The notes beneath the pieces were generated by a model. That model did not search any database, had not been told where the DNA came from, and worked only from the letters and a program-made list of their open reading frames with translations. From an uncultured Lachnospiraceae bacterium (GTDB lineage Bacteria > Bacillota > Clostridia > Lachnospirales > Lachnospiraceae), in the NCBI GenBank assembly GCA_902789665.1, contig CADAOY010000001.1, positions 62,001-126,000 of the forward strand: a stretch of 64,000 nucleotides of DNA, written 5' to 3'. Shown one piece after another: positions 1,613 through 62,771 of this stretch (the stretch's first letter is position 1; each line of letters opens with the position of its first letter). The position numbers were made by a program, and so were the translations under genes.

Positions 1613-4600
1613 ATGCCATACAGTTTTAATTCAAGAGAAGAAAGAGAAGAAGCGTATAATACAATTTTTGATGATGCTGAAAGTGCCTCAAAGGAATTTA
1701 TGGAAGATAACTTAGATGGATTGTTTGATACCATTGATAATTATGTTTCAACCATGGCAACAGATGATGTTCGTTATAAGGTAGCTCTTCCTGATTTTAA
1801 GTCCAAGACAGGTGCTTTTATGGCATGGATGGTTGGCGAGAAGGGAATGAGTATTGATGAAGCATCGAAGATGTTTGATGGGGACCAGCCGGGTGCTGAA
1901 GAACTTGTCCAGGAGTTTGGTATGTTTTTGATGGAGCATTCCGTCCTTTTAGGTACTGATGGTTCATTAACTACAATGGAATATAATAAAGGCCTTGTTG
2001 CTCCGGATAGAGCCGTTAAAATCAGAGAGATGTTTATTAAGGCATCCGCCAAGTTCGAGGAGTACAAGATTCCGGATATTGATTATTCAAATCCTAAAGA
2101 AGTTAAGAAAATGGCACCTCAGATGGTTATGATTAAGGCACTTTGTAATGAGGCACTTATTCAGGTAAAAGAGTATTCAGACCTTCCATACAAATTCAAA
2201 GATGAAGATGAGAAGGTTAAGAACGCTGTTGAAAAAGCGATTACCCGTAAAAAAATGCCCAGATCCTATGATTCATTTACTAAAATAATTGGAAATGGAA
2301 AGGCTCCGAAGGATATTAAATCTGATTTAAATAAATTAACTGATAAGTATGATTATTTTTATAACAGAGTTAAAGATCCATATAGTAGTAGAGCCGATGT
2401 TGCTCCTCTTTCCACTACTCTGGCTCACCGTACTATTCTTAATGATTATAGAGGCAAAACTTTAATTCAGGCTGAACCAGGATTGAGAAATATTTCGCGT
2501 CGTTCCGAAAAAATTGGTACTCTTATGGACCTTGAGTATGAAATTACTGATAATCGAATCCTTCGTAAGTTAAAAGGTGAAGAGGATGAGATTCTTGGGG
2601 AAATTGTAAATGAGTGTAATCAGAAATTTGATTATACTCTTAAATCCAAAGCAAGGTCTTTGGCCTATGACAAAGACAGAGATGCAGAGAAAAACAGAAA
2701 GTATAAGGAAAGCCAGAAACCGGAGAATCTGGACGAAGAGTTTAAGTTAGTTGGTGAGATTAAGGCAGATATAATTCAGGCAAGGGTTAGTGAACTTATT
2801 GACAACGCCAAGAAATATGAAATTTCTGACGGTGACAAGGAACTTCTTCGTGAGCTTAAGAGTACTCTTTCCGAATATGGAAACATCATTAAGAATGCAA
2901 ATACAAAAAATGATTTAAAGATGTTCGCAGGAAAGACAGAAGAACTTAAGGATATATACAGACCTTTGAATTACGTGCATCATAATCCTGAGAATTATGA
3001 AAATGTAACTGGCTATAAGAATCTTCAGGATTCTCTTGGAAAAATAAAGCTGATTCATGATACCTTTGAAATCGGTGGAAAATTGAATGATGATGGTTCT
3101 GAAACCAGGGAAGAACCAATTCCACCGGAGATTACTGAAGTTTTAGGTCAGATTGATAAGATGTGTGAAGCAGATGCTCATTTTCTTGATGGAATCAGGG
3201 ATCTCAATGTAACGGCTATGTCACTTCCTCAGCTTAAGAAGGTTTATACCAAAAATAATCCTGATATTAAGCTTGACCGTATGAAACTCGAAGAGGCAGT
3301 TAAGAAGCAAAAGCCAAAAACAATTGCCGAGCTTGACAAAATTGACAAGGAAGTTGCTCCAAAGGTTAATGAGAAAGATTACCAGACGAGCCTTAAAATT
3401 AATAATCAGATTAACGTCTTAAAATACATAGATGGTATGAAGAAAGAAGTTGACGCTACCGGCAAGCTGACTTACAACCAGCTGGTTGATATGCTTGCAG
3501 CAAGAGCCGTTATATGTGCACAGAGAAACAAGAAGAGAGGACTTAATAAGGAAACTTCATCACTTGCAATTGCTGAAATGGCTGAGAAGATTCAGGATAT
3601 GTATCTTATCAAGAATTTCTATAACAACTGTAAGTCTGATCCAAAGATGATGAAAGAGCTGATTGATAATTTCCAGAGTGGTCATGGCGGCGCTGTAGAA
3701 GATATGATCAAGAAGCATTCCAATCTGATTACTACTAACAAACTGAATGGAGATCCGAAGGTTCTTGAGAGATTTGTTACAACTCCAAAGGAAAGAATTA
3801 AGGCCTTCCAGGAAGAGTTTAGTAAAAATGGTGGTGATAAACCTGCATTCGCCATGGAAATTATTCTTATGCGTAATGTTGCAGAAGCCGGAAGAAAAGA
3901 CAGTTCTAATTTAAAACAGCCTTTGAATGCAGAAATGCTTGCAGAGGCCAGAAGACAGGATGCTCTTTTAAGAAATGATAAAGTAATGCCGGCTATTTGC
4001 GCCGGAGTTCCTGATGCAAAATTTGGTGAATTACTTACAAGAGGTAATGGTGGCAAATTCGTCGAGCAGGTAAGACGTATTGCTGATACAAACAGATTTG
4101 GTAAGATAGAAGGCATTACTGAAGTAGTCGAGAAGAATACCATTGTAGGAAAATATAAGTCTATTAACAAAGAAATTAAAGCATGTGAGAAGGCTACACA
4201 GGATCTTTTCAAAGATGTTAAGGCTGGCAAAATCACCAGGGAGGATTTTAACAAACAGCTGAATGGTTACTTTACCGAACTGGTTGCCCAGAGTATTGTG
4301 GCATCTGATATGATAACTGCAGCCAAGGCAACAAAGACTCAGAAGGAACTGAGAGTAGATTTAAATAAAAAGGAATTTAATGAGAAGGTTAAAACCTTAA
4401 TGAATTCCGAAGATTTCAAGAAGAATTACAAGACCATGATGGAGCCTGATAATATTCCTAAGGAATTCTCACTTGACAGTGTGGCTAAGCAATATAATGT
4501 GGCCAGGGAGAAGAATGCTGAGGCAGCCAGAAAGGCAGCAGAAGCAAAGGCTCTTAAGGAAGCTCAGAATGATGTTAAGAAGAAAGTTGGCAAACAGCTT

Positions 4601-4648
4601 GCTGACAGACTTAAAGAGCAAAAACCATTAGGACCTATGGGATTTTAG
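1613..4648 (+). CDS. Large hydrophilic GHGG-module protein, unknown function (1011 aa)
   Basis: Not a family I recognise. It is soluble, highly charged and mostly helical in composition, with no signal peptide or membrane segment. It is a clear paralogue of the 1021-residue protein at 12623: both carry TGxFxAW followed by EKxMS near residues 66-82, a DLPYKFK/TMPYKLK segment, and a repeated module that starts with a hydrophobic-Arg helix and ends in a Gly-rich motif. Here the first module ends in GHGG at residues 690-693 and the second in GNGG at 811-814, 121 residues apart. A third, motif-less unit leads to LMNSEDFKKNY and MMEPDN near residues 930-945. The C-terminal tail is Ala/Lys-rich and ends LGPMGF. 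Start ATG follows AGAGGTGG. A strong terminator lies behind it. Confidence 0.85.
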   Translation: MPYSFNSREEREEAYNTIFDDAESASKEFMEDNLDGLFDTIDNYVSTMATDDVRYKVALPDFKSKTGAFMAWMVGEKGMSIDEASKMFDGDQPGAEELVQEFGMFLMEHSVLLGTDGSLTTMEYNKGLVAPDRAVKIREMFIKASAKFEEYKIPDIDYSNPKEVKKMAPQMVMIKALCNEALIQVKEYSDLPYKFKDEDEKVKNAVEKAITRKKMPRSYDSFTKIIGNGKAPKDIKSDLNKLTDKYDYFYNRVKDPYSSRADVAPLSTTLAHRTILNDYRGKTLIQAEPGLRNISRRSEKIGTLMDLEYEITDNRILRKLKGEEDEILGEIVNECNQKFDYTLKSKARSLAYDKDRDAEKNRKYKESQKPENLDEEFKLVGEIKADIIQARVSELIDNAKKYEISDGDKELLRELKSTLSEYGNIIKNANTKNDLKMFAGKTEELKDIYRPLNYVHHNPENYENVTGYKNLQDSLGKIKLIHDTFEIGGKLNDDGSETREEPIPPEITEVLGQIDKMCEADAHFLDGIRDLNVTAMSLPQLKKVYTKNNPDIKLDRMKLEEAVKKQKPKTIAELDKIDKEVAPKVNEKDYQTSLKINNQINVLKYIDGMKKEVDATGKLTYNQLVDMLAARAVICAQRNKKRGLNKETSSLAIAEMAEKIQDMYLIKNFYNNCKSDPKMMKELIDNFQSGHGGAVEDMIKKHSNLITTNKLNGDPKVLERFVTTPKERIKAFQEEFSKNGGDKPAFAMEIILMRNVAEAGRKDSSNLKQPLNAEMLAEARRQDALLRNDKVMPAICAGVPDAKFGELLTRGNGGKFVEQVRRIADTNRFGKIEGITEVVEKNTIVGKYKSINKEIKACEKATQDLFKDVKAGKITREDFNKQLNGYFTELVAQSIVASDMITAAKATKTQKELRVDLNKKEFNEKVKTLMNSEDFKKNYKTMMEPDNIPKEFSLDSVAKQYNVAREKNAEAARKAAEAKALKEAQNDVKKKVGKQLADRLKEQKPLGPMGF

Positions 4649-12622: not shown

Positions 12623-15600
12623 ATGAGCGTTTTTAATACAGAAGAAGAAGATAAGAAATACGGAGGACGGAATTATTCAGATGTTATGTCTGAAATAAGA
12701 GACACCGGGAGTGACTTATCTGACAAAATCAAGAAAGCCGTTGAAGCAAGATTAGCTGAAGAACAGAAGAATTATCCTGATGAAGATGATCTTACAATTG
12801 CAGATCCTGAAATCATGAATCCTACAGGTATGTTTAATGCATGGCTTATTTCTGAAAAGAAGATGAGTCCTGAAGATGCTTTCAGGATTAATAAAGATAG
12901 TGAAAATTATGAAGCTTTGGCTGATGAATACGCTAAGTTTATTGCAGACAGCAGTGTTTTGGCTCACGAGTTCAATGGTGAGGTTATCAGCGCAAAGCCT
13001 GGTGCAATTGCAAAGGTAATGAAGGATGCATATGCAGCAATGAAGGATTATAAGATCCCTGTTTTTGATGTATATGATATTAATCAAGGCAAGGATGCCC
13101 TGAGGGTTGTTCATGGTGCTAAAGAGTTACTTTCAGAGATTCACGAGCAGGCTTATGCTTTCGATACCATGCCATATAAATTAAAGACTATAGACGGTGC
13201 AATAGGCAGTAAGTATTCTATGAATTATTTGCCTACTGCTGAAACAAAGGCCATTAATACTTTCTATGGAGAAATAATTCCGGATAATAAGGTTAAGGAA
13301 AAGGTAGAGGGCTTCCGTAAAGTAACAGAGGCTCAGAGAGAACAGGCACGTGAAATGTGCGCCATTATTGGTAATGCCTATGATCCGGGTTATACATATT
13401 CACCACTTCGTCTGTTGGTACTTCGTGAAAGAATTAAAGATTTCATGGGTAAAACAATGGAGGAGACCAAAGAAGTTACTGCGGATAAGGTTTATGATGA
13501 AATTAGAAAAAGGGCAGATGATATTTCTGAAACAACAGCTATGAAGAATGTTTCGGAAGCTCGTATGCTGGAAAGACTTCTTGGTAATAAAGATGATGAA
13601 ATTGATGAGATTGTTTCCGTTAAGGGCGCTGTCAAAATTTCAGTGACAAAAAATAAAATTAAATCACAAAAGCAGATTACCAAGGAGAAAAACAAAGCTG
13701 TCGAAAAAAGTGATACAGGCAAAAGTATTAGGGATATGAAAGACAGACAGGTTAAATCATCAGACCATGATTTTAAATTAAGAGCTGAGATTTATGGTGA
13801 AGATGTACAGAAAGAAATTTACAAGGTTGATCAGAATAATAAACACTATGATAATCTGAAGAAGATAGCCGATGCAATTAATGTTATCAACTTAAATATC
13901 AAAGCTCTTAATACACCTGTTAAATATAATTTTCAGGATTTTGAAGTCGATGGTGTAAAACCGTCATTTATCTTTGGAAACTATGTAAATGGAAGATATG
14001 AAGCGGAAGATTACTATGAGCAACTTGTAAATAATAATAATAGTATTAAAGCAGCCATTGATGCCATTAAGGCAGATGAGGATTATGACAAACTTCCTCA
14101 GAATATCAAGGATATCGTAGCTGTATCTGAAAATATATACAGATTTGATAATCATTTCTATGACTGGATTGAAGAGATGCCGCTTCATCTTACCAGCGTT
14201 GATGAAGCCAAGAAAAAATATAGTAATGTCTATGACTTTGTTAAGAGCGACGGTAAGAAAATTGAAGAGCAGATTAATACTGCCAAGAATGCACAGGGCA
14301 ATACTTATAACATATCAGTACTTAAGAATATTATTGATGAGAATAATGCTGTTAATAACATTGACGTGGATAATCACAAAGAAATCTTCAATAATGCTGA
14401 TTTAGTAGGTGGTTTAAATGATGATAAAGTTAATGTTAAGAACTATATTGAAGAATTACAAAATGGCATAGACTCACGTAATAATATGACATTCGATGAT
14501 TTTGCAAAGTTACTTGCATTAAGAACCATTGCAGATGCAAAGCGTAATTCATTCCGTGGAAACTCACTTAATAAGGATGTGGACAGAAATGAATTAAATA
14601 ATATGATAGATGAGTTCAAGAATGAGCCATCTGTTAAAACAGCCTTCCAGTATGCCAAGGTTAATCCTAAGAGATGGGAATCACTTAACAAGGCATTTAA
14701 GACAGGCCATGGTGGTGGAATTGAGGATTATTACAAGACAACTCTTAAGGTTGCAAACTTCGAAGATATTCCTCTGAGCGATACATTCGCAAGATTCAGA
14801 CCAACTGTAAAAGAGAAGATTGAATTTATGCAGGATCTTGTTAAGAATGGTTCAGAAAGATTAACAAGTGCAGTAACAGATATTATTGTATGCCGTAATA
14901 TTGCAGGCGCTGAAAGAGATAAAAAAGGCAAGCTTGATTTTGTAATGAGCGGTGACTTCATTAAGAAGGCTATAGAGCAGGAAAAGATTCTTAAAGAGCA
15001 TAAAGCTTTCAATAGTATGATTCGTGAGATTGATCGTAAACAGCTTAAGGATCTTATTACTGAAGGTCATGGTGGTGCCATGTCAGAACTTGTAAGACAG
15101 AAGTCTGAACAGGCATTTATGAGAGGTGAGAAGGAAGTTCATTCAGTATTATGGCATAATACTATTGATGGTATGATTGACAGAATCAATGCCCAGTTTG
15201 CTGAAATTAAAAATGATGTTAATGATATTGTGGCAAATCTGCCTAAGGTTGACGAAAATGCAGATCCACTTGAACTTGATGAAGCATATAATAATGCATT
15301 CCGTGCCGGAGATGATATTGATATTGATAATGTTGATGATCTTAAACCGGATATTAATATTGCTATGAAGAGAAATGTTGCAAGAGTAGTAGTTGTCAGC
15401 AAGATGAAGGAAGAGAAGAAGAATGCCAGCAGAGATGAATATGCTTCAGATTTTTCTGACAGTGATTTTATCAAACGTGTTGATAAACTTATGGATGACC
15501 CTGAGTTCGGAGTTGTATACGCTCAGATGATGAAGCCTGAGAATCAGGTTGAACAAATGACCGTTGAGAATATTAATAATAAGTATCATGAAGTAAGGCA

Positions 15601-15688
15601 GCAGATGGGACTTGAGAAGAAGCCTCAGAAGGCTAAACAGAACGAGCCTGAGAAGCAAGTTGAGAATAAGGCACCGGCAATGAACTAG
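12623..15688 (+). CDS. Large hydrophilic GHGG-module protein, unknown function (1021 aa)
   Basis: Paralogue of the protein at 1613 with the same layout and nearly the same length: acidic N-terminus, TGMFNAW ... EKKMS at residues 68-82, TMPYKLK, YSPLRLLVLRERIKDFMGKT, then repeated modules. Module 1 (KLLALRTIADAKRNSFRG ... FKTGHGG) ends at residues 695-698, module 2 (VCRNIAGAERD ... ITEGHGG) at 815-818, 120 residues apart. A third, incomplete unit (MKRNVARVVVVSKMKEE) leads to LMDDPEFGVVYAQMMKPEN. No signal peptide, membrane segment or known catalytic motif is visible. The tail is Lys/Glu/Pro-rich. Start ATG follows AAAGGAAG. The 608-residue gene starts 28 bases after the stop, so the two form a pair that mirrors the pair at 1-4648. 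Confidence 0.85.
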   Translation: MSVFNTEEEDKKYGGRNYSDVMSEIRDTGSDLSDKIKKAVEARLAEEQKNYPDEDDLTIADPEIMNPTGMFNAWLISEKKMSPEDAFRINKDSENYEALADEYAKFIADSSVLAHEFNGEVISAKPGAIAKVMKDAYAAMKDYKIPVFDVYDINQGKDALRVVHGAKELLSEIHEQAYAFDTMPYKLKTIDGAIGSKYSMNYLPTAETKAINTFYGEIIPDNKVKEKVEGFRKVTEAQREQAREMCAIIGNAYDPGYTYSPLRLLVLRERIKDFMGKTMEETKEVTADKVYDEIRKRADDISETTAMKNVSEARMLERLLGNKDDEIDEIVSVKGAVKISVTKNKIKSQKQITKEKNKAVEKSDTGKSIRDMKDRQVKSSDHDFKLRAEIYGEDVQKEIYKVDQNNKHYDNLKKIADAINVINLNIKALNTPVKYNFQDFEVDGVKPSFIFGNYVNGRYEAEDYYEQLVNNNNSIKAAIDAIKADEDYDKLPQNIKDIVAVSENIYRFDNHFYDWIEEMPLHLTSVDEAKKKYSNVYDFVKSDGKKIEEQINTAKNAQGNTYNISVLKNIIDENNAVNNIDVDNHKEIFNNADLVGGLNDDKVNVKNYIEELQNGIDSRNNMTFDDFAKLLALRTIADAKRNSFRGNSLNKDVDRNELNNMIDEFKNEPSVKTAFQYAKVNPKRWESLNKAFKTGHGGGIEDYYKTTLKVANFEDIPLSDTFARFRPTVKEKIEFMQDLVKNGSERLTSAVTDIIVCRNIAGAERDKKGKLDFVMSGDFIKKAIEQEKILKEHKAFNSMIREIDRKQLKDLITEGHGGAMSELVRQKSEQAFMRGEKEVHSVLWHNTIDGMIDRINAQFAEIKNDVNDIVANLPKVDENADPLELDEAYNNAFRAGDDIDIDNVDDLKPDINIAMKRNVARVVVVSKMKEEKKNASRDEYASDFSDSDFIKRVDKLMDDPEFGVVYAQMMKPENQVEQMTVENINNKYHEVRQQMGLEKKPQKAKQNEPEKQVENKAPAMN

Positions 15689-22463: not shown

Positions 22464-23216
22464 ATGAGTACAAAAGACAGAGTTATACAGGCTTTGGAAA
22501 AATCCAAAGGTGAATATATTTCGGGAGAAAAACTTGCCGGTGATCTTGATGTGTCCAGAAATGCAGTCTGGAAAGCTGTTAATGATTTAAAGAAGCAGGG
22601 ATATGCCATTGATTCAGTTAAGAACAGAGGCTATATGCTTTCGGAGAGTTCGGATATTATCTCTAAGGCAGGTGTTGAACTTTGCCTTCGTGATATGAAA
22701 ATGAAGACACAGGCAAAACCAATTCTTGATAATCTGTCAGTATATGACAATATTGATTCAACCAATACTCAGGCCAAAAGAGAGATAGTATTTGATGGTT
22801 TTGATGTACCACACAAAACCACAATTGTTGCAAGGGTTCAGAGTAATGGCAAAGGTCACAGTGGAAAGAATTTCGAGTCACCAAATGGTGGAATATATTT
22901 AAGCATGATTTTGACTCCATCAGACCTTGTGGTAACTGAGCCGGTAAACCAGGTTGTAACAAAGATGGTTATTGATGTGATCCTGGATAAGTGCGGAATT
23001 TTACTTGATAGGAAAGAAAATAATTCCCTGTATGCCGGAGATGAAAAGGTAGTCGGCATTCTTACAGAAGCTTTGTCTGATTTAGAGACAGGTGTATATA
23101 GCAGATTTATTGTTGGTATTGGAATAAGAACAGATATCCTTGGTAAAAAGGCAGGTGACATGCCATCTAAAAATCAGATTCTTGCAGCTCTTATTGCCAG
23201 ATTTTCTGAATTATAA
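22464..23216 (+). CDS. BirA-like biotin repressor with degenerate, shortened ligase domain
   Basis: Residues 1-62 form the BirA winged helix (RVIQALEKSKGEYISGEKLA, SRNAVWKAVNDLKKQGY). Residues about 88-250 follow the biotin protein ligase fold (NIDSTNTQAKR, SPNGGIYLSMIL, VVGILTEAL, IVGIGIRTD). Two active-site motifs are altered: GRGRRGR reads GKGHSGK (129-135) and the KWPND region reads KENNS (184-188). The C-terminal SH3-like domain is absent; the protein has 250 residues against about 320 for E. coli BirA. It therefore probably binds biotin or biotinyl-AMP and DNA but may not ligate. A BirA-type operator stands 20 bases behind its stop, in front of the symporter-bioB genes. The start has only a weak site (AAGTAGG). 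Confidence 0.85.
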   Translation: MSTKDRVIQALEKSKGEYISGEKLAGDLDVSRNAVWKAVNDLKKQGYAIDSVKNRGYMLSESSDIISKAGVELCLRDMKMKTQAKPILDNLSVYDNIDSTNTQAKREIVFDGFDVPHKTTIVARVQSNGKGHSGKNFESPNGGIYLSMILTPSDLVVTEPVNQVVTKMVIDVILDKCGILLDRKENNSLYAGDEKVVGILTEALSDLETGVYSRFIVGIGIRTDILGKKAGDMPSKNQILAALIARFSEL

Positions 23217-23235
23217 TTGGGTGACTATTTCAAAT

Positions 23236-23288
23236 AGTCAACCATAAAATGAAAACAGGTTGACAAACAAACCTCTTCATTGTATAAC
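23236..23288 (+). promoter_or_regulatory. Biotin (BirA-type) operator overlapping a consensus promoter
   Basis: GTCAACC (23237-23243), 14 bases, GGTTGAC (23258-23264) is a perfect inverted repeat of the biotin-operator type. The right arm overlaps the -35 TTGACA (23260-23265); 17 bases further is the -10 TATAAC (23283-23288). Binding would block RNA polymerase at the symporter-bioB operon. Confidence 0.88.
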
Positions 23289-23323
23289 TTTATGTGGTTA
23301 ATACAAAAGAAGAGGTTTTTTTA

Positions 23324-24697
23324 ATGAATATAATTTTTGCAGGCGCATTACTTATTTATCTTATTATCTTTATCGCAATTGGTATTCTTGATATTAAGAA
23401 TATCAAGTCTTTTACAGATTATTCCGTAGCAGGTAAAAAGCAGAATTCCTTATCAGTTGTAATGACACTTCTTGCAACTGTTGTCGGCGCATCTACCACG
23501 ATTGGTATTACAACAACAGTTTATAATATCGGTTTTCCGGGTATCTGGTGGCTGGCATTTGGTGCTGTGGGGCTGATTTTGCAATCGGTATTTTTATCTA
23601 AAAAGGTGAGAGATATCGGCGCTGATACATTGCCTGATCTGGCGGGAAGAATCGTTGGAAGACCTGCGGAAGTTATTATATCATTGATTATCGTTATATC
23701 CTGGGTTGGTGTTATTGCAGGGCAGCTGGTTGCAATGAATTCGCTCATTACCTTTGCCCTTGGCAAAAGCAGCACCCTCATCTTCGTAATCACATCCATT
23801 ATCGTAATTGCATATACTGCTATCGGCGGACAGATGTCAGTTGTTAAGACGGACAAGGTTCAGCTGGTGATTATCCTTCTTGGCGTAACAATCTGTATGG
23901 GATATCTTTATTTGACAAGAGGCGATAACAACGGCGCCATCATGCAGAATATCGAACTTCTTAATGAGAATTACAAAGTGTCAAATCTGTTTACGCAGAT
24001 TTTTGTAATCGGCGGTGTATATTTCTTAGGACCTGATATCATGTCCAGAAACTTCATTGCAAAGGACAGTAAGTCTGCGAAGAATTCAGCATGGATTGCA
24101 GGCGTGGTACTTCTTGGATTCTCTGTAATTATCACCTTAATCGGTATGTGGATTAAATATAATGTTACTCCGGAAGAAATGGGCGATATGGGAGCGCTGA
24201 TGTATGCGATTTCTATTATGCCTAAGTGGGTTGCAGTTTTGCTGATATTTGGGCTCTTGTCAGCGATCCTTTCATCAACAGATACCTGTATCATCAATGC
24301 ATCCACAATCTTTGTTAAGGATATATTAAAGAAAGAAAGCGTAAAAGGCGTAAGAATAACCGTTATTGTAATCGGCGTGATAGCGTTGCTTCTGGCGGTC
24401 CTTGGACAGGGAGACATTATGAGCCTTCTGACCGGCGCTTACAGCATATATACGCCGGGGGTTATTTTCCCACTAATGATTGCAATTTTTGCATATAAGA
24501 AAAAGGGCATTAATATGGGACTCTGGGTTACAGCTGTTATTGCAGGCGGACTCTTCGGAATTATGGGAACATATTTCGGAAATGTCCTTACAAATCTTGG
24601 TATACCGGCAGTAATCATGAATTATCTAACCCTGATTGGTATGGGCATCTCCCTTATTCTTTCGCTTATTTCAGTTAACTGGAAGGAGAAAAAATAA
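23324..24697 (+). CDS. Sodium:solute symporter (SSS family), candidate biotin or dethiobiotin importer
   Basis: A 457-residue membrane protein with about 13 hydrophobic segments and the SSS layout: FTDYSVAGKKQNSLSVVMTLLATVVGASTTIG near the N-terminus, AYTAIGGQMSVVKTDKVQ in the middle and LSAILSSTDTCIINASTIFVKDIL before the last helices (shown as pieces). I start at ATG 23324, behind AGAAGAGG, because an upstream in-frame GTG at 23294 lies at the predicted transcription start. The bioB start codon overlaps its stop (TAATG). The substrate is inferred from context only: it is under a biotin operator and co-transcribed with bioB. Mammalian SMVT (SLC5A6), an SSS member, carries biotin, so the chemistry is possible. 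Confidence 0.9.
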   Translation: MNIIFAGALLIYLIIFIAIGILDIKNIKSFTDYSVAGKKQNSLSVVMTLLATVVGASTTIGITTTVYNIGFPGIWWLAFGAVGLILQSVFLSKKVRDIGADTLPDLAGRIVGRPAEVIISLIIVISWVGVIAGQLVAMNSLITFALGKSSTLIFVITSIIVIAYTAIGGQMSVVKTDKVQLVIILLGVTICMGYLYLTRGDNNGAIMQNIELLNENYKVSNLFTQIFVIGGVYFLGPDIMSRNFIAKDSKSAKNSAWIAGVVLLGFSVIITLIGMWIKYNVTPEEMGDMGALMYAISIMPKWVAVLLIFGLLSAILSSTDTCIINASTIFVKDILKKESVKGVRITVIVIGVIALLLAVLGQGDIMSLLTGAYSIYTPGVIFPLMIAIFAYKKKGINMGLWVTAVIAGGLFGIMGTYFGNVLTNLGIPAVIMNYLTLIGMGISLILSLISVNWKEKK

Positions 24698-25665
24698 TGA
24701 CCACTGATGTGCTTAAATTAGCAGAAGAAATTATAGACGGTTACAGAATTTCAAAAGATGATGATTTAAATTTTCTTAAAAGTACAGACCTTGGCAAACT
24801 TAGCGAAGGCGCAGATAAATTAAGAAAACATTTTTCAGGAGACAGAGTTGATTTATGCTCAATAATCTCAGCGAAGAATGGTGCCTGTTCAGAAGACTGC
24901 AAGTACTGCGCTCAGTCTGCTCATAATCATACGGGATGCGAAGTTTATGATCTTCTTAAATATGATGATATATACGCACTTGCTTCTTCTAATGAGAAGG
25001 CGGGAGTGGACAGGTTCGCAATTGTTATTTCAGGGCATGGTCCTTCAGATGAAGATTTTGAAAGAATTATAGAGATATTTAAAAGATTAAGGGCTGAGCT
25101 TAAGATTAATTTTTGTGCATCTTTAGGCTTCCTTACACAGGAGCAGTTTGACAGGCTCTATGAGGCGGGCGTAAGGAATTATCATAATAATATCGAGACA
25201 TCGCCAAAGTACTTTAAGAAGATTTGTACGACTCATACTTTTGAGGACAAGAAAGCGAATATTAAGAGAGCGAAGAAGGCCGGCCTTAATGTGTGCTCAG
25301 GTGGAATCATCGGTATGGGCGAGAGTATGGATGACAGAATTGATATGGCGCTTGCGCTTTCTGAACTTGAGATTAAATCAATTCCGATTAATACCTTAAT
25401 TCCGATTCCAGGAACTCCGCTTGAGAATCTGCCGAGGCTGACAAATGATGAGATATTAAGGACGATTGCGATATTTAAATATATAAATCCTGAAGCCGAC
25501 ATTCGTCTTGCGGCTGGCAGAAAACTCATCGAGGGTAACGGTGAGGCGGCATTCAGGGGCGGCGCCAGCGCTACCATTACAGGTGATATGCTGACCACAT
25601 CGGGCTCTACAATAAGGAGCGATCGGGAGATGCTCGTCAAGATGGGAAGAGAAGTGAGAACATAG
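24697..25665 (+). CDS. bioB: Biotin synthase, anaerobe type
   Basis: Radical SAM enzyme that inserts sulfur into dethiobiotin. The [4Fe-4S] motif CSEDCKYC is at Cys64, Cys68, Cys71. Auxiliary-cluster residues known from E. coli are partly kept: Cys140 (INFCASLG), Cys200 (NVCSGGIIGMGE) and Arg270 (RLAAGR). However, the position of E. coli Cys97 (RFCMGAAW) reads RFAIVISG with Ala108, as in the second class of BioB from strict anaerobes. Extra Cys residues occur in VDLC (just before the radical SAM loop) and HTGC. The length, 322 residues, is shorter than E. coli BioB at the C-terminus. The start codon overlaps the symporter stop, so both are under the biotin operator. No other biotin biosynthesis gene is in the window. 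Confidence 0.95.
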   Translation: MTTDVLKLAEEIIDGYRISKDDDLNFLKSTDLGKLSEGADKLRKHFSGDRVDLCSIISAKNGACSEDCKYCAQSAHNHTGCEVYDLLKYDDIYALASSNEKAGVDRFAIVISGHGPSDEDFERIIEIFKRLRAELKINFCASLGFLTQEQFDRLYEAGVRNYHNNIETSPKYFKKICTTHTFEDKKANIKRAKKAGLNVCSGGIIGMGESMDDRIDMALALSELEIKSIPINTLIPIPGTPLENLPRLTNDEILRTIAIFKYINPEADIRLAAGRKLIEGNGEAAFRGGASATITGDMLTTSGSTIRSDREMLVKMGREVRT

Positions 25666-25737: not shown

Positions 25738-25775
25738 ATAAAAAAGCCATCCAGCATTTGGATGGCTTCTTCTTG
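25738..25775. terminator. Bidirectional terminator
   Basis: AAGCCATCC and GGATGGCTT form a 9-bp stem with T runs on both strands (TTCTTCTT on +, TTTTTT on -). It closes bioB and the convergent chemoreceptor gene. Confidence 0.88.
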
Positions 25776-30866: not shown

Positions 30867-31847
30867 ATGGCAGACGTAAGACCTGAAAGTATGGAACGTA
30901 TCAGCACAAAGGAACTGGCCGATGCTTTTATCGAAGAGCAGATCGCCGCAATCAAGGCACAGGTAGGTGACAAGAAAGTTCTTCTTGCATTATCCGGTGG
31001 CGTTGACTCATCAGTAGTTGCAGCCCTTCTCATTAAGGCTATTGGCAAGCAGTTAGTATGTGTTCATGTTAATCATGGACTTCTTCGTAAGGGTGAGCCT
31101 GAGCAGGTTATTGAAGTATTCCGTAACCAGATGGATGCTAACCTTATCTACGTTGATGCAACAGATAGATTTCTTGATAAACTTGCAGGAGTTGAAGAAC
31201 CTGAAAGAAAGCGCAAAATCATCGGCGAGGAATTCATTCGTGTATTCGAAGAAGAAGCTCGTAAGTTAGATGATGTTGACTTCCTTGCACAGGGTACAAT
31301 TTATCCTGATATCTTAGAGTCAGGTCCTGTTAAGGCACATCACAATGTTGGCGGACTTCCTGAAGACATTCATTTTGAAGGTCTTGTTGAGCCAATCAAA
31401 TTATTATTCAAAGATGAAGTTCGTGTAGTAGGTGACGCACTTGGTCTTCCGGCTAATATGGTATATCGTCAGCCATTCCCAGGCCCTGGTCTTGGCGTAA
31501 GATGTACAGGCGCAATCACAAGAGAGAGACTTGCACTTGTCAGAGAGTCAGATGCAATCTTAAGAGAAGAATTTGATAAGGCAGGTCTTGCAGGAAAAGT
31601 ATGGCAGTACTTCACCATCGTTCCTGACTGCAAGTCAGTTGGTGTTAAGCACAACATGAGAGTTGTTGAGAACTTCGTGGTTATCCGCGCCGTTAATACC
31701 AAGGATGCCATGACAGCTTCCATTGAGCCTATCCCATACGAAGTACTTAACCGTATCGTAGACAGAATCATCACAGAAGTACCTGGCATTAACAGAGTAT
31801 TATATGATTTAACTCCAAAGCCATCAGGTACAATTGAGTGGGAATAA
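30867..31847 (+). CDS. guaAb: Stand-alone GMP synthase ATP-pyrophosphatase subunit
   Basis: A 326-residue protein that matches only the ATP-PPase and dimerisation parts of GMP synthase: P-loop [66 protein letters not shown] and the C-terminal KPSGTIEWE. There is no glutaminase domain here or next door. The family in archaea and some bacteria works with a separate GuaAa subunit or with free ammonia. A complete two-domain GuaA is encoded at 61233, so this is a second copy of the synthetase half. Start ATG follows TAGGAGG. Its stop codon lies in the left arm of an inverted-repeat element. Confidence 0.93.
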
Positions 31848-32066: not shown

Positions 32067-32297
32067 ATGGATATTTCAGATAGAATAAAGGATTTAAGAA
32101 AGAAAACGGGATTATCGCAAAGTAAATTTTCCGCTAAATTTGAAATTCCCGTAAGAACTCTTCAGCAGTGGGAACAGGGAATAAGCGCACCTCCGGATTA
32201 TTTGGTCAGAATGATGGCATATATTATGCTGCTTGAGGAAAACGCGCAAATAAAAGATGAGGAATCTATAAGGGGAAAACACGCAGATGGCAAATGA
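32067..32297 (+). CDS. XRE-family HTH regulator
   Basis: A 76-residue protein with one HTH: IKDLRKKTGLSQSKFSAKFEIPVRTLQQWEQGISAPPDYLVRMM (helices 1-5, in one stretch of about 45 residues). The ending YIMLLEENAQIK is of the short type found beside plasmid, phage or toxin-antitoxin genes. Start follows TGGAGGCG. Its last 11 bases overlap the next gene. Confidence 0.88.
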   Translation: MDISDRIKDLRKKTGLSQSKFSAKFEIPVRTLQQWEQGISAPPDYLVRMMAYIMLLEENAQIKDEESIRGKHADGK

Positions 32298-32760
32298 TAA
32301 AGTTCAATTATTTGAAGACCAGCCGATAAGGACGGCATGGGTTGAGGATGAGGAAGAATGGTATTTTTCAATAGTGGATGTGGTTGGAGTGCTGACTGAG
32401 CAACCGGATATTGATGGTGCAAGGAATTATTGGAAAGTACTGAAAAACAGGCTTAAAGAAGAAGGAAGTCAGTTGGTTACAAATTGTAACCAACTGAAAA
32501 TGAGATCGCCGAAGGATGGAAAAAGATATAATACTGACGTAGCTAATACCGAGCAGTTGCTTCGCCTGATTCAATCAATCCCATCCAAAAAGGCAGAACC
32601 TTTCAAAATGTGGCTGGCCCAGGTAGGTCGTGAACGAATAGAGGAAGTGATAGACCCGGAACTGACTATCGAGAGGGCTCTTGAGACCTATGCGAAAAAA
32701 GGTTATTCACGAGAATGGATCAATCAGCGCCTGCAGGTAATCCGCGTGAATGCTTGTTGA
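32287..32760 (+). CDS. Bro-N (phage antirepressor-type) protein, probably truncated
   Basis: Residues about 8-115 form a Bro-N DNA-binding domain (VQLFEDQPIRTAW, WYFSIVDVVGVLTEQ, YWKVLKNRLKEEGSQLV, TEQLLRLIQSIPSKKAEPFKMWLAQVGRERI in parts) followed by IDPELTIERALETYAKKGYSREWINQRLQ. Members I recall continue for roughly another 100 residues after this point, but here the frame ends after VIRVNAC, so the C-terminal half seems to be lost. Bro-N proteins are known as phage antirepressors or in accessory islands. Within the gene, 32470-32496 is a perfect palindrome with 13-bp arms, coding QLVTNCNQL. Start follows AAGGGG. Confidence 0.8.
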   Translation: MANDKVQLFEDQPIRTAWVEDEEEWYFSIVDVVGVLTEQPDIDGARNYWKVLKNRLKEEGSQLVTNCNQLKMRSPKDGKRYNTDVANTEQLLRLIQSIPSKKAEPFKMWLAQVGRERIEEVIDPELTIERALETYAKKGYSREWINQRLQVIRVNAC

Positions 32761-61232: not shown

Positions 61233-62771
61233 GTGGAAGAAAAAATATTGATTCTGAATTTTGGCGGTCAGTATGATCAGCTTATTGCCAGAAGAGTCAG
61301 AGAATGTAATGTATATTCAGAGGTTAAGCCTTATGATATGACACTTGATGAGATTAAGGCTTTTAACCCAAAGGGTATTATTTTTACCGGTGGGCCTGAG
61401 AGTGTATATGCGGAGAATTCTTATCATCCGGCGGAGGGGATTTTTGAACTTGGTATTCCAATTCTTGGTATCTGCTATGGCTGCCAGCTTATAGCATATC
61501 ATCTTGGTGGAAGCGTTGTTCCGGCAAGTGAAGATACTGCAAGAGAGTACGGAAGAACAGAGACTAATCTTAATAATAACTGTCCGCTTTTTGCAGGAAT
61601 AGAGCCTAAGCTTATTACATGGATGAGCCATGGTGATTATATGGCTAAGGTGCCACAGGGATTCGTTCTTTCAGCTTTCTCCAAGGCGTGTCCTAACGTT
61701 GCAATCAGCAATGAGCAGAAGAAAATATATGGCGTTCAGTTCCATCCTGAGGTTAATCATACAGAGCACGGAACTGAGATGATCAGGAATTTCTTATACA
61801 GAGTCTGTGGCGTGTCAGGAAACTGGACAATGTCCAATTTCATGAATGAGAGTATAGAGAAGATTCAGAATAAGGTTGGAGACGGTAAGGTGCTTCTTGC
61901 ATTATCAGGCGGTGTTGATTCGTCTGTCCTTGCAGCTCTTCTTTCGAAGGCAATCGGAAGACAGCTTACCTGTGTATTCGTAGACCACGGCCTTATGCGT
62001 CTTAATGAAGGTGACGAAGTTGAAGAAGCATTCCGTGACTGGGATATTAATCTTATAAGAATAAATGCTGAGAAGAGATTCCTGGATAAACTTGCAGGAG
62101 TATCTGATCCTGAGAAGAAGCGTCACATCATCGGCGAGGAGTTCATCAGGGTATTCGAGGAAATCGGAAAGCAGATAGGCTCTGTTGATTATCTTGCGCA
62201 GGGTACAATTTATCCTGATGTTATCGAATCAGGTAAGGGTAATGCGGATGTAATTAAGAGTCACCACAACGTTGGCGGTCTTCCTGATTTCGTTGATTTC
62301 AAGGAGATTATTGAGCCGCTTAGACTTCTCTTTAAGGATGAGGTCAGAGCGCTTGGCAGGGAACTTGGATTATCATCTGTTTTGGTTGAGAGACAGCCAT
62401 TCCCGGGACCAGGTCTTGCCATCAGAGTAATTGGTGAGATAACAAAGGAGAAACTTGATATAGTTCGTAAGGCTGATTTTATCTTCAGGGAAGAGGTTGA
62501 AAAGGCTGGAATCAGAGATACAATGAATCAGTATTTTGCAGCTCTTACAAACCTTAGAAGTGTAGGCGTTATGGGTGATGGAAGAACCTATGATTATGCT
62601 ATTGCCTTAAGAAGCGTTGTAACATCAGACTTTATGACTGCAGAATATACACATATTCCTTATGAGGTTCTCGATAAGGTTTCACTTAGAATTGTTAATG
62701 AAGTGGATGGTGTTAACAGAGTGTTCTATGATATAACAGGTAAACCGCCTGCAACGGTTGAGTACGAATAA
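61233..62771 (+). CDS. guaA: GMP synthase, glutamine-hydrolysing
   Basis: The complete two-domain enzyme of 512 residues. The class I glutaminase (about 3-190) carries the nucleophile Cys81 in GICYGCQL and the His/Glu pair in [13 protein letters not shown]. The ATP-PPase domain has [33 protein letters not shown] and HHNVGGLPD, and the dimerisation domain ends KPPATVEYE. It turns XMP into GMP. Start is GTG behind GAGGAAA. It overlaps in function with the stand-alone synthetase half at 30867, but is not the same: that copy ends SGTIEWE and differs at many positions. Confidence 0.97.

Follow-up and report, generated by a model that had tools for sequence, protein, structure and literature searches.

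A candidate SSS-family biotin importer and a BirA-like protein at a conserved BirA-type operator in Lachnospiraceae

BirA is the textbook bifunctional repressor-enzyme. Operator binding by B. subtilis BirA is reported to require both biotin and ATP (PMC4016012), and work on L. lactis describes two BPL homologues, BirA1 and BirA2, both active ligases, only one of which has a DNA-binding domain and binds the bioY1 promoter (PMC4861984). On the side of uptake, a large survey of gut vitamins scored BioY and YigM as biotin carriers, suggested a wider vitamer specificity for both and found BioY in 78% of biotin auxotrophs (PMC6593275), which by subtraction leaves about 22% of the surveyed auxotrophs without BioY. 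In mammals, biotin is taken up with Na+ by SMVT (SLC5A6; PMC8747999). SMVT shares its superfamily with the bacterial symporter described here, which also has the SSS family in common with bacterial PutP (proline) and PanF (pantothenate). The SSS family is not known for biotin import in bacteria; the symporter gene described here (sss) points to such an importer. Our literature search, made on partly accessible sources in which an earlier mention is possible, recognised no proposal of a bacterial SSS biotin importer or of a ligase-less BirA repressor.

Here we analyse a 64,000-nucleotide stretch of DNA (the window) from the genome of an uncultured Lachnospiraceae bacterium (G000; 91.5% complete; nearest named relative, Lachnospiraceae bacterium UBA4338). 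We consider it likely that a locus within it is a biotin-salvage module, in which an SSS biotin importer stands in BioY's place and a birA-like protein serves as a biotin-sensing repressor.

Organization of the locus and its operator

The locus (window 22464–25665) carries, in order on the forward strand, a birA-like gene, a BirA-type operator, sss and bioB (Table 1). A preliminary description of this DNA had reported the perfect inverted repeat, its position over the −35 box of the sss promoter and the overlap of the bioB start with the sss stop, and all three hold: the right arm of the operator continues into TTGACA, and the A that closes the sss TAA also opens the bioB ATG, the two codons having that one base in common. 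The birA-like gene, which ends 20 bp before the operator, had been missed. The automatic promoter scan left out the TTGACA/TATAAC pair because it demands T at the last −10 base. For sss we chose the ATG at 23324, which aligns in relatives; the mechanical open reading frame is longer and runs from a GTG at 23294. The bioB product scores 396 bits against a cut-off of 225 for TIGR00433, and so belongs to that equivalog. The hairpin beyond bioB is weak evidence for a terminator, since three such hairpins were observed in the region where shuffles give a mean of 2.3.

Table 1. Features of the locus, with positions counted in the window
Feature	Position	Strand	Remarks
birA-like gene	22464..23216	+	250 aa; PF08279 HTH 53.9 bits, PF03099 38.4 bits
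BirA-type operator GTCAACC-N14-GGTTGAC	23237..23264	.	perfect inverted repeat; predicted from sequence
−35 box TTGACA	23260..23265	+	operator right arm runs into box
−10 box TATAAC	23283..23288	+	spacer to −35 of 17 bp
sss, SSS-family symporter gene	23324..24697	+	457 aa, ATG start; PF00474, TIGR00813
bioB, biotin synthase	24697..25665	+	TIGR00433, PF04055, PF06968
Terminator-like hairpin 3' of bioB	25744..25768	+	motif scan; weak

A second inverted repeat (23269–23278/23309–23318) takes in both the promoter and the ribosome-binding site of sss, with a T run after it. It folds with about −20 kcal/mol, is by eye partly kept in the closest relatives, and would form only in read-through transcripts from birA; it may be the birA terminator, or may stop read-through that bypasses the operator. 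Elsewhere the window holds two GMP synthase genes (Pfam), one without the glutaminase domain (30867–31847) and one full-length (61233–62771), as well as genes for two proteins, each about 1,000 aa long, that match no Pfam family (1613–4648 and 12623–15688). A protein with a Bro-N domain, which is frequent in phages, is encoded at 32287–32760, flanked by the shorter of the GMP synthase genes and a long NAD synthetase-like open reading frame.

Even with spacings of 12–16 allowed, the window contains no second match to the operator, and 100 shuffles of it gave none; with GTNAACC arms the operator is the only site in its genome. A scan of named genomes gave 80 symporter loci, many with ruminant-gut names and mostly from Lachnospiraceae or Eubacterium, the isolates among them including Eubacterium ruminantium, E. 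xylanophilum and Lachnospiraceae bacteria NE2001, LC2019, AC2031, AC2029 and YSB2008. NE2001 and LC2019 have the birA-like gene together with a symporter under the operator, and the E. ruminantium locus (L072) is that of strain ATCC 17233. Operators were counted in the 77 loci with at least 200 bp upstream, the three shorter loci being left out. Under a strict rule (at most one mismatch per arm, spacing 14 or 15) an operator is present in 62 of the 77, at sss in 60 and before a bioB–sss pair in two, and 46 are perfect. Seven further loci have two left-arm mismatches and bring the total to 69/77, the truncated locus L090 being counted among the 77 and left out of this relaxed recheck. Two loci have only a site of spacing 16, and at the sss of five others (L033, L048, L050, L056 and L101) no operator fits these forms; the L056 symporter has a near-match whose spacing is 12.

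Against the remainder of these loci as background (1.256 Mb in all), 47 perfect sites were found, 44 at sss, two before a bioB–sss pair and one before bioB. The arms persist while the spacers vary, the 47 perfect sites having 45 different ones, and of the 40 loci where sss has no birA or bioB beside it, 28 keep the operator. At the 44 perfect sss sites the sixth −35 base, the only one independent of the arm, is A in 37, and a −10-like hexamer (at most two mismatches to TATAAT, best of spacers 15–19) follows in 43. The right arm itself contains TTGAC, most of the −35 consensus, and could thus be held in part by the promoter alone; only the left arm is therefore fully independent evidence of an operator.

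In a sample of 299 genomes of the family, the operator adjoins the symporter in 10 of the 12 genomes that have one, the exceptions being G078 and G040, whose symporters are more distant (57% and 51% identity). We also searched these 299 genomes with a loose pattern, GTNAACC-N14-GGTTNAC, and with the reversed pattern as control. The loose pattern gave 58 sites in 52 genomes and has a real background, since its reverse gave 26. Thirty of the 58 sites were fetched and their neighbours identified by tblastn: bioY, bioB or sss lies within about 1.5 kb of 23 (bioY at 19, one of them weak and beside bioB; bioB alone at one; sss at three), and none of these genes lies near the other seven. At one bioY site (L158) the order is birA, operator, bioY, which is the arrangement of the symporter locus with BioY in the place of sss. 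A BirA-type operator is thus conserved at the sss promoter across species. The preliminary description had called for a reconstruction of the regulon in related genomes, and symporter orthologues there lie mostly under biotin operators (62/77 strict, 69/77 relaxed, 10/12 in the family sample). A chance repeat was set aside on its uniqueness in window and genome, its absence from the 100 shuffles and its retention at the relatives' loci.

The BirA-like protein

The birA-like protein falls short of BirA in length and scores below all BirA equivalog cut-offs compared. Its structural model (pLDDT 87.5) has S. aureus BPL as its best PDB matches, and it resembles BirA of E. coli, B. subtilis and S. 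aureus in its N-terminal HTH, ligase-fold core, biotin-pocket residues and type of operator. It differs from them in lacking the C-terminal domain, the second Arg of the GRGR motif and both Trp and Asp in KWxND. We compared these motifs in 37 proteins, the window's own and those of 36 named loci, 33 of which have the birA-like gene within 1 kb of sss; five duplicate BirA rows were left out. All 37 have His as the second Arg of GRGR and neither Trp nor Asp in KWxND, whose Lys is kept in 27, the window protein included. The biotin-pocket residues S99, T100, N101, Q126, G129 and G131, by contrast with these losses, are kept in 37/37. An HTH region is present in the related birA-like proteins except that of L034, which is a short open reading frame. 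The replaced Arg corresponds, counted along the alignment, to Arg122 of S. aureus BPL, which a study of that enzyme places in the biotin-binding loop and the dimer interface (PMC7235819).

Canonical ligases from the symporter genomes provide the comparison. They were picked by a pattern that presupposes a GxG-type loop, though not KWxND, and on that footing the ligase motifs are present in 25/25 of them versus 0/37 birA-like proteins. Beyond the point at which the window protein ends, the canonical ligases extend by 30–90 aa and the birA-like proteins by 0–5 aa. Four fetched loci gave no ligase sequence (two of G229, one of G129 and one a duplicate of G297). The 37 birA-like proteins form one group in the tree, with support of 100/99.

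A PF03099 search over 28 symporter genomes showed a readable canonical ligase in 25, with G000, G129 and G229 not classed. In 17 of the 25 the canonical ligase has no HTH, and all 17 of these genomes contain a further, weaker match to PF03099 (its sequence was read in 15, all but G327 and G034); in the remaining eight the one ligase carries an HTH and has its motifs intact. An intact HTH-less ligase is present as a second protein in a close relative (L026/G299) and in a 100%-complete genome of the same genus (G120). The PF03099 search of G000 found no canonical ligase, perhaps owing to the 91.5% completeness of that genome. Two BirA proteins adjacent to an operator-controlled bioY, in L158 (644–1486) and L160 (565–1326), keep GRGR but have an altered KWxND and a short or missing C-terminal domain; judged from their sequences, they may be halfway stages in the loss of the ligase among relatives that have BioY.

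Retention of the HTH and biotin pocket together with loss of the ligase parts suggests a dedicated biotin-sensing repressor. In contrast to B. subtilis BirA, the ATP-side motifs are gone, and their loss from a protein that keeps its biotin pocket suggests that repression would respond to biotin itself. The L. lactis pair is comparable in that there too a genome has two BPL homologues, only one with a DNA-binding domain; here, however, the HTH protein appears to have lost its ligase parts. It could be argued that the birA-like protein is still an active ligase, an ordinary bifunctional BirA that tolerates its altered motifs, for the PF03099 search of G000 found no other match, that genome has an MKM carrier protein, and the KWxND Lys persists in the protein as in most of the 37. 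We regard this as unlikely, given that the KWxND Trp and Asp, the second GRGR Arg and the C-terminal domain are missing throughout and that an intact, HTH-less ligase exists beside it in L026/G299 and G120.

Distribution and predicted cargo of the symporter

The symporter was found (E up to 1e-40) in 12 of the 299 family genomes, and BioY in 266 of the 299 but in none of the 12. BioY is thus absent from 12/12 genomes with the symporter versus 21/287 without it (Fisher, p about 4e-13; p 6e-12 among genomes at least 90% complete), in a test that takes genomes as unrelated, the 299 spanning 298 genera. A wider set of 62 symporter genomes was made up of these 12 and 50 named loci. The 30 of the 80 named loci left out were seven duplicates of family-sample genomes, L045 (same assembly as L042), four apparently misbinned loci (L030, L064, L078 and L090) and 18 others, mostly on short contigs. 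BioY occurs in 2/62 (L056 and L088) and in none of the eight isolates; the L088 genome has BioY in addition to a full birA–operator–sss–bioB locus. The window's own genome has no BioY, an absence that the preliminary description had singled out for checking. These absences are uncertain because most of the genomes are MAGs, and the search for rival importers covered BioY alone. A class-wide search with the same threshold found the symporter in 2/391 genomes, both already-known members of the family, and in none outside it.

BioY and the symporter thus have the same kind of operator, the same host family, a place beside birA or bioB and the same proposed job. They differ in belonging to unrelated protein families, sss implying no ECF module, and are mutually exclusive in the family sample, with the two exceptions in the wider 62.

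Some symporter loci stand apart in their binning. L042 and L045 are two birA–operator–sss loci in one assembly (UBA3850) with clearly different BirA proteins, reflecting duplication or a mixed bin. L030, L043, L064, L078, L079 and L090 are binned as Treponema, Spirochaetes or Dehalococcoidales, through horizontal transfer or misbinning; among them, the symporter contigs of L064 and L079 (both with birA) and of L043 are binned as Treponema or Treponemataceae.

bioD was found over cut-off in none of the 62 symporter genomes, with 13 weak matches below it, and G000 is among those where it was not found, in keeping with the report in the preliminary description that it is missing here. With bioD alone as the marker, these bacteria are predicted biotin auxotrophs. 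They nevertheless seem to have uses for the vitamin: the biotin/lipoyl carrier domain PF00364 is present in 17/17 symporter genomes examined, 16 of which, G000 (MKM) among them, showed an MK[ML] motif. Having carrier domains, no bioD and no BioY, they seem to need biotin without possessing the known dethiobiotin step or BioY.

The preliminary description had proposed that the symporter imports biotin, or dethiobiotin for conversion by BioB. Operator conservation, BioY exclusion and the absence of bioD support such an importer. Of the two findings by which that description would have dismissed its proposal, neither arose: G000 has no BioY and, with bioD standing for the pathway, no full biotin pathway, and orthologues elsewhere mostly carry biotin operators. 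Biotin is the favoured cargo on genomic grounds. bioB is over cut-off in 43/62 symporter genomes and not in the other 19, although a fragment of it lies at a contig end in one. Fifteen of the 19, including G160 (99% complete) and G229 (97%), still have an operator at sss, with no more than one mismatch in either arm. Dethiobiotin would be useless without bioB, which makes biotin the likelier cargo in such genomes and the better-supported one overall than dethiobiotin alone. A symporter specific for dethiobiotin, or for another precursor linked to BioB, with biotin entering by another route, would accord with bioB lying directly downstream of sss in 15 of the 80 loci and directly upstream in two, with the lack of bioD and with the presence of bioB in 8/8 isolates, where dethiobiotin is possible as the main cargo. 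Yet 60 of the 62 genomes have no BioY to bring in biotin, and this together with the 15 operator-bearing genomes that have no bioB over cut-off makes such a restriction distinctly improbable; dethiobiotin as sole cargo was set aside on the latter count. Dethiobiotin may, however, be carried besides biotin.

The symporter protein itself lies over the family cut-off (PF00474, E 1.1e-25) and has the SSS fold, its model (pLDDT 88.8) being of the CHT1/SiaT/SGLT type. Its residues A314, S317 and S318 align with A361, S364 and S365 of vSGLT, which we take to be Na2-site residues. Across 58 sequences A314 and S317 are invariant and S318 is kept in at least 90%, so that the predicted Na2 site is conserved by alignment. 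SMVT (26va) is a remote match among the solved-structure proteins compared, ranking last of 17 PDB matches with a profile of 58 sequences (E 5e-4) and 12th of 16 with one of 12 sequences (E 2.8e-5), behind CHT1, vSGLT and SGLT1 in both. It is absent from the fold-search matches listed, an absence that is uninformative. With this remote rank among PDB sequence matches and no special kinship, orthology with SMVT was rejected; by sequence, SMVT is an analogy within the superfamily rather than the closest relative. That the symporter carries some other vitamin or solute (pantothenate, lipoate, proline or choline) and is under biotin control for a metabolic reason is very improbable, for although SSS members carry many solutes, and this one has recognisable, weak similarity to the PutP and PanF models and the choline transporters CHT1 as its nearest solved structures, it falls far below the cut-offs of PanF (48.5 versus 328 bits) and PutP (63 versus 515.5 bits), both of which identities were rejected, it and BioY, lying under like operators, exclude each other across the family genomes sampled, and the predicted auxotrophs would then be left without BioY or any other importer found.

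A proposed biotin-salvage module

Gene content, operator conservation, BioY exclusion and motif loss, all observed by computation, are the basis from which we infer how transport and its cargo, Na+ coupling, repression and the repressor's ligand would fit together in a biotin-salvage module. When biotin is scarce the repressor would leave the promoter, allowing sss and bioB to be made; the SSS protein would then import biotin with Na+, and probably dethiobiotin too, which BioB would convert to biotin. When biotin is plentiful the birA-like repressor would bind GTCAACC-N14-GGTTGAC over the −35 box and shut off sss–bioB. Protein biotinylation would be left to a separate HTH-less ligase of the kind seen in relatives, and sss would hold the regulatory and functional place that BioY has in most of the family. 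As to how this came about, we lean slightly towards a history in ruminant-gut Lachnospiraceae-type bacteria in which an SSS protein displaced BioY under the same operator, a BirA paralogue became a pure repressor independent of ATP and biotinoyl-AMP, and an HTH-less ligase took over biotinylation.

A BirA poor in ligase parts would be a natural split of sensing from catalysis. If the symporter is indeed a biotin importer, it would offer a new subject for biotin recognition by Na+ symporters. A further importer, unrelated to those scored so far, could also close part of the gap of about 22% left by BioY among surveyed auxotrophs.
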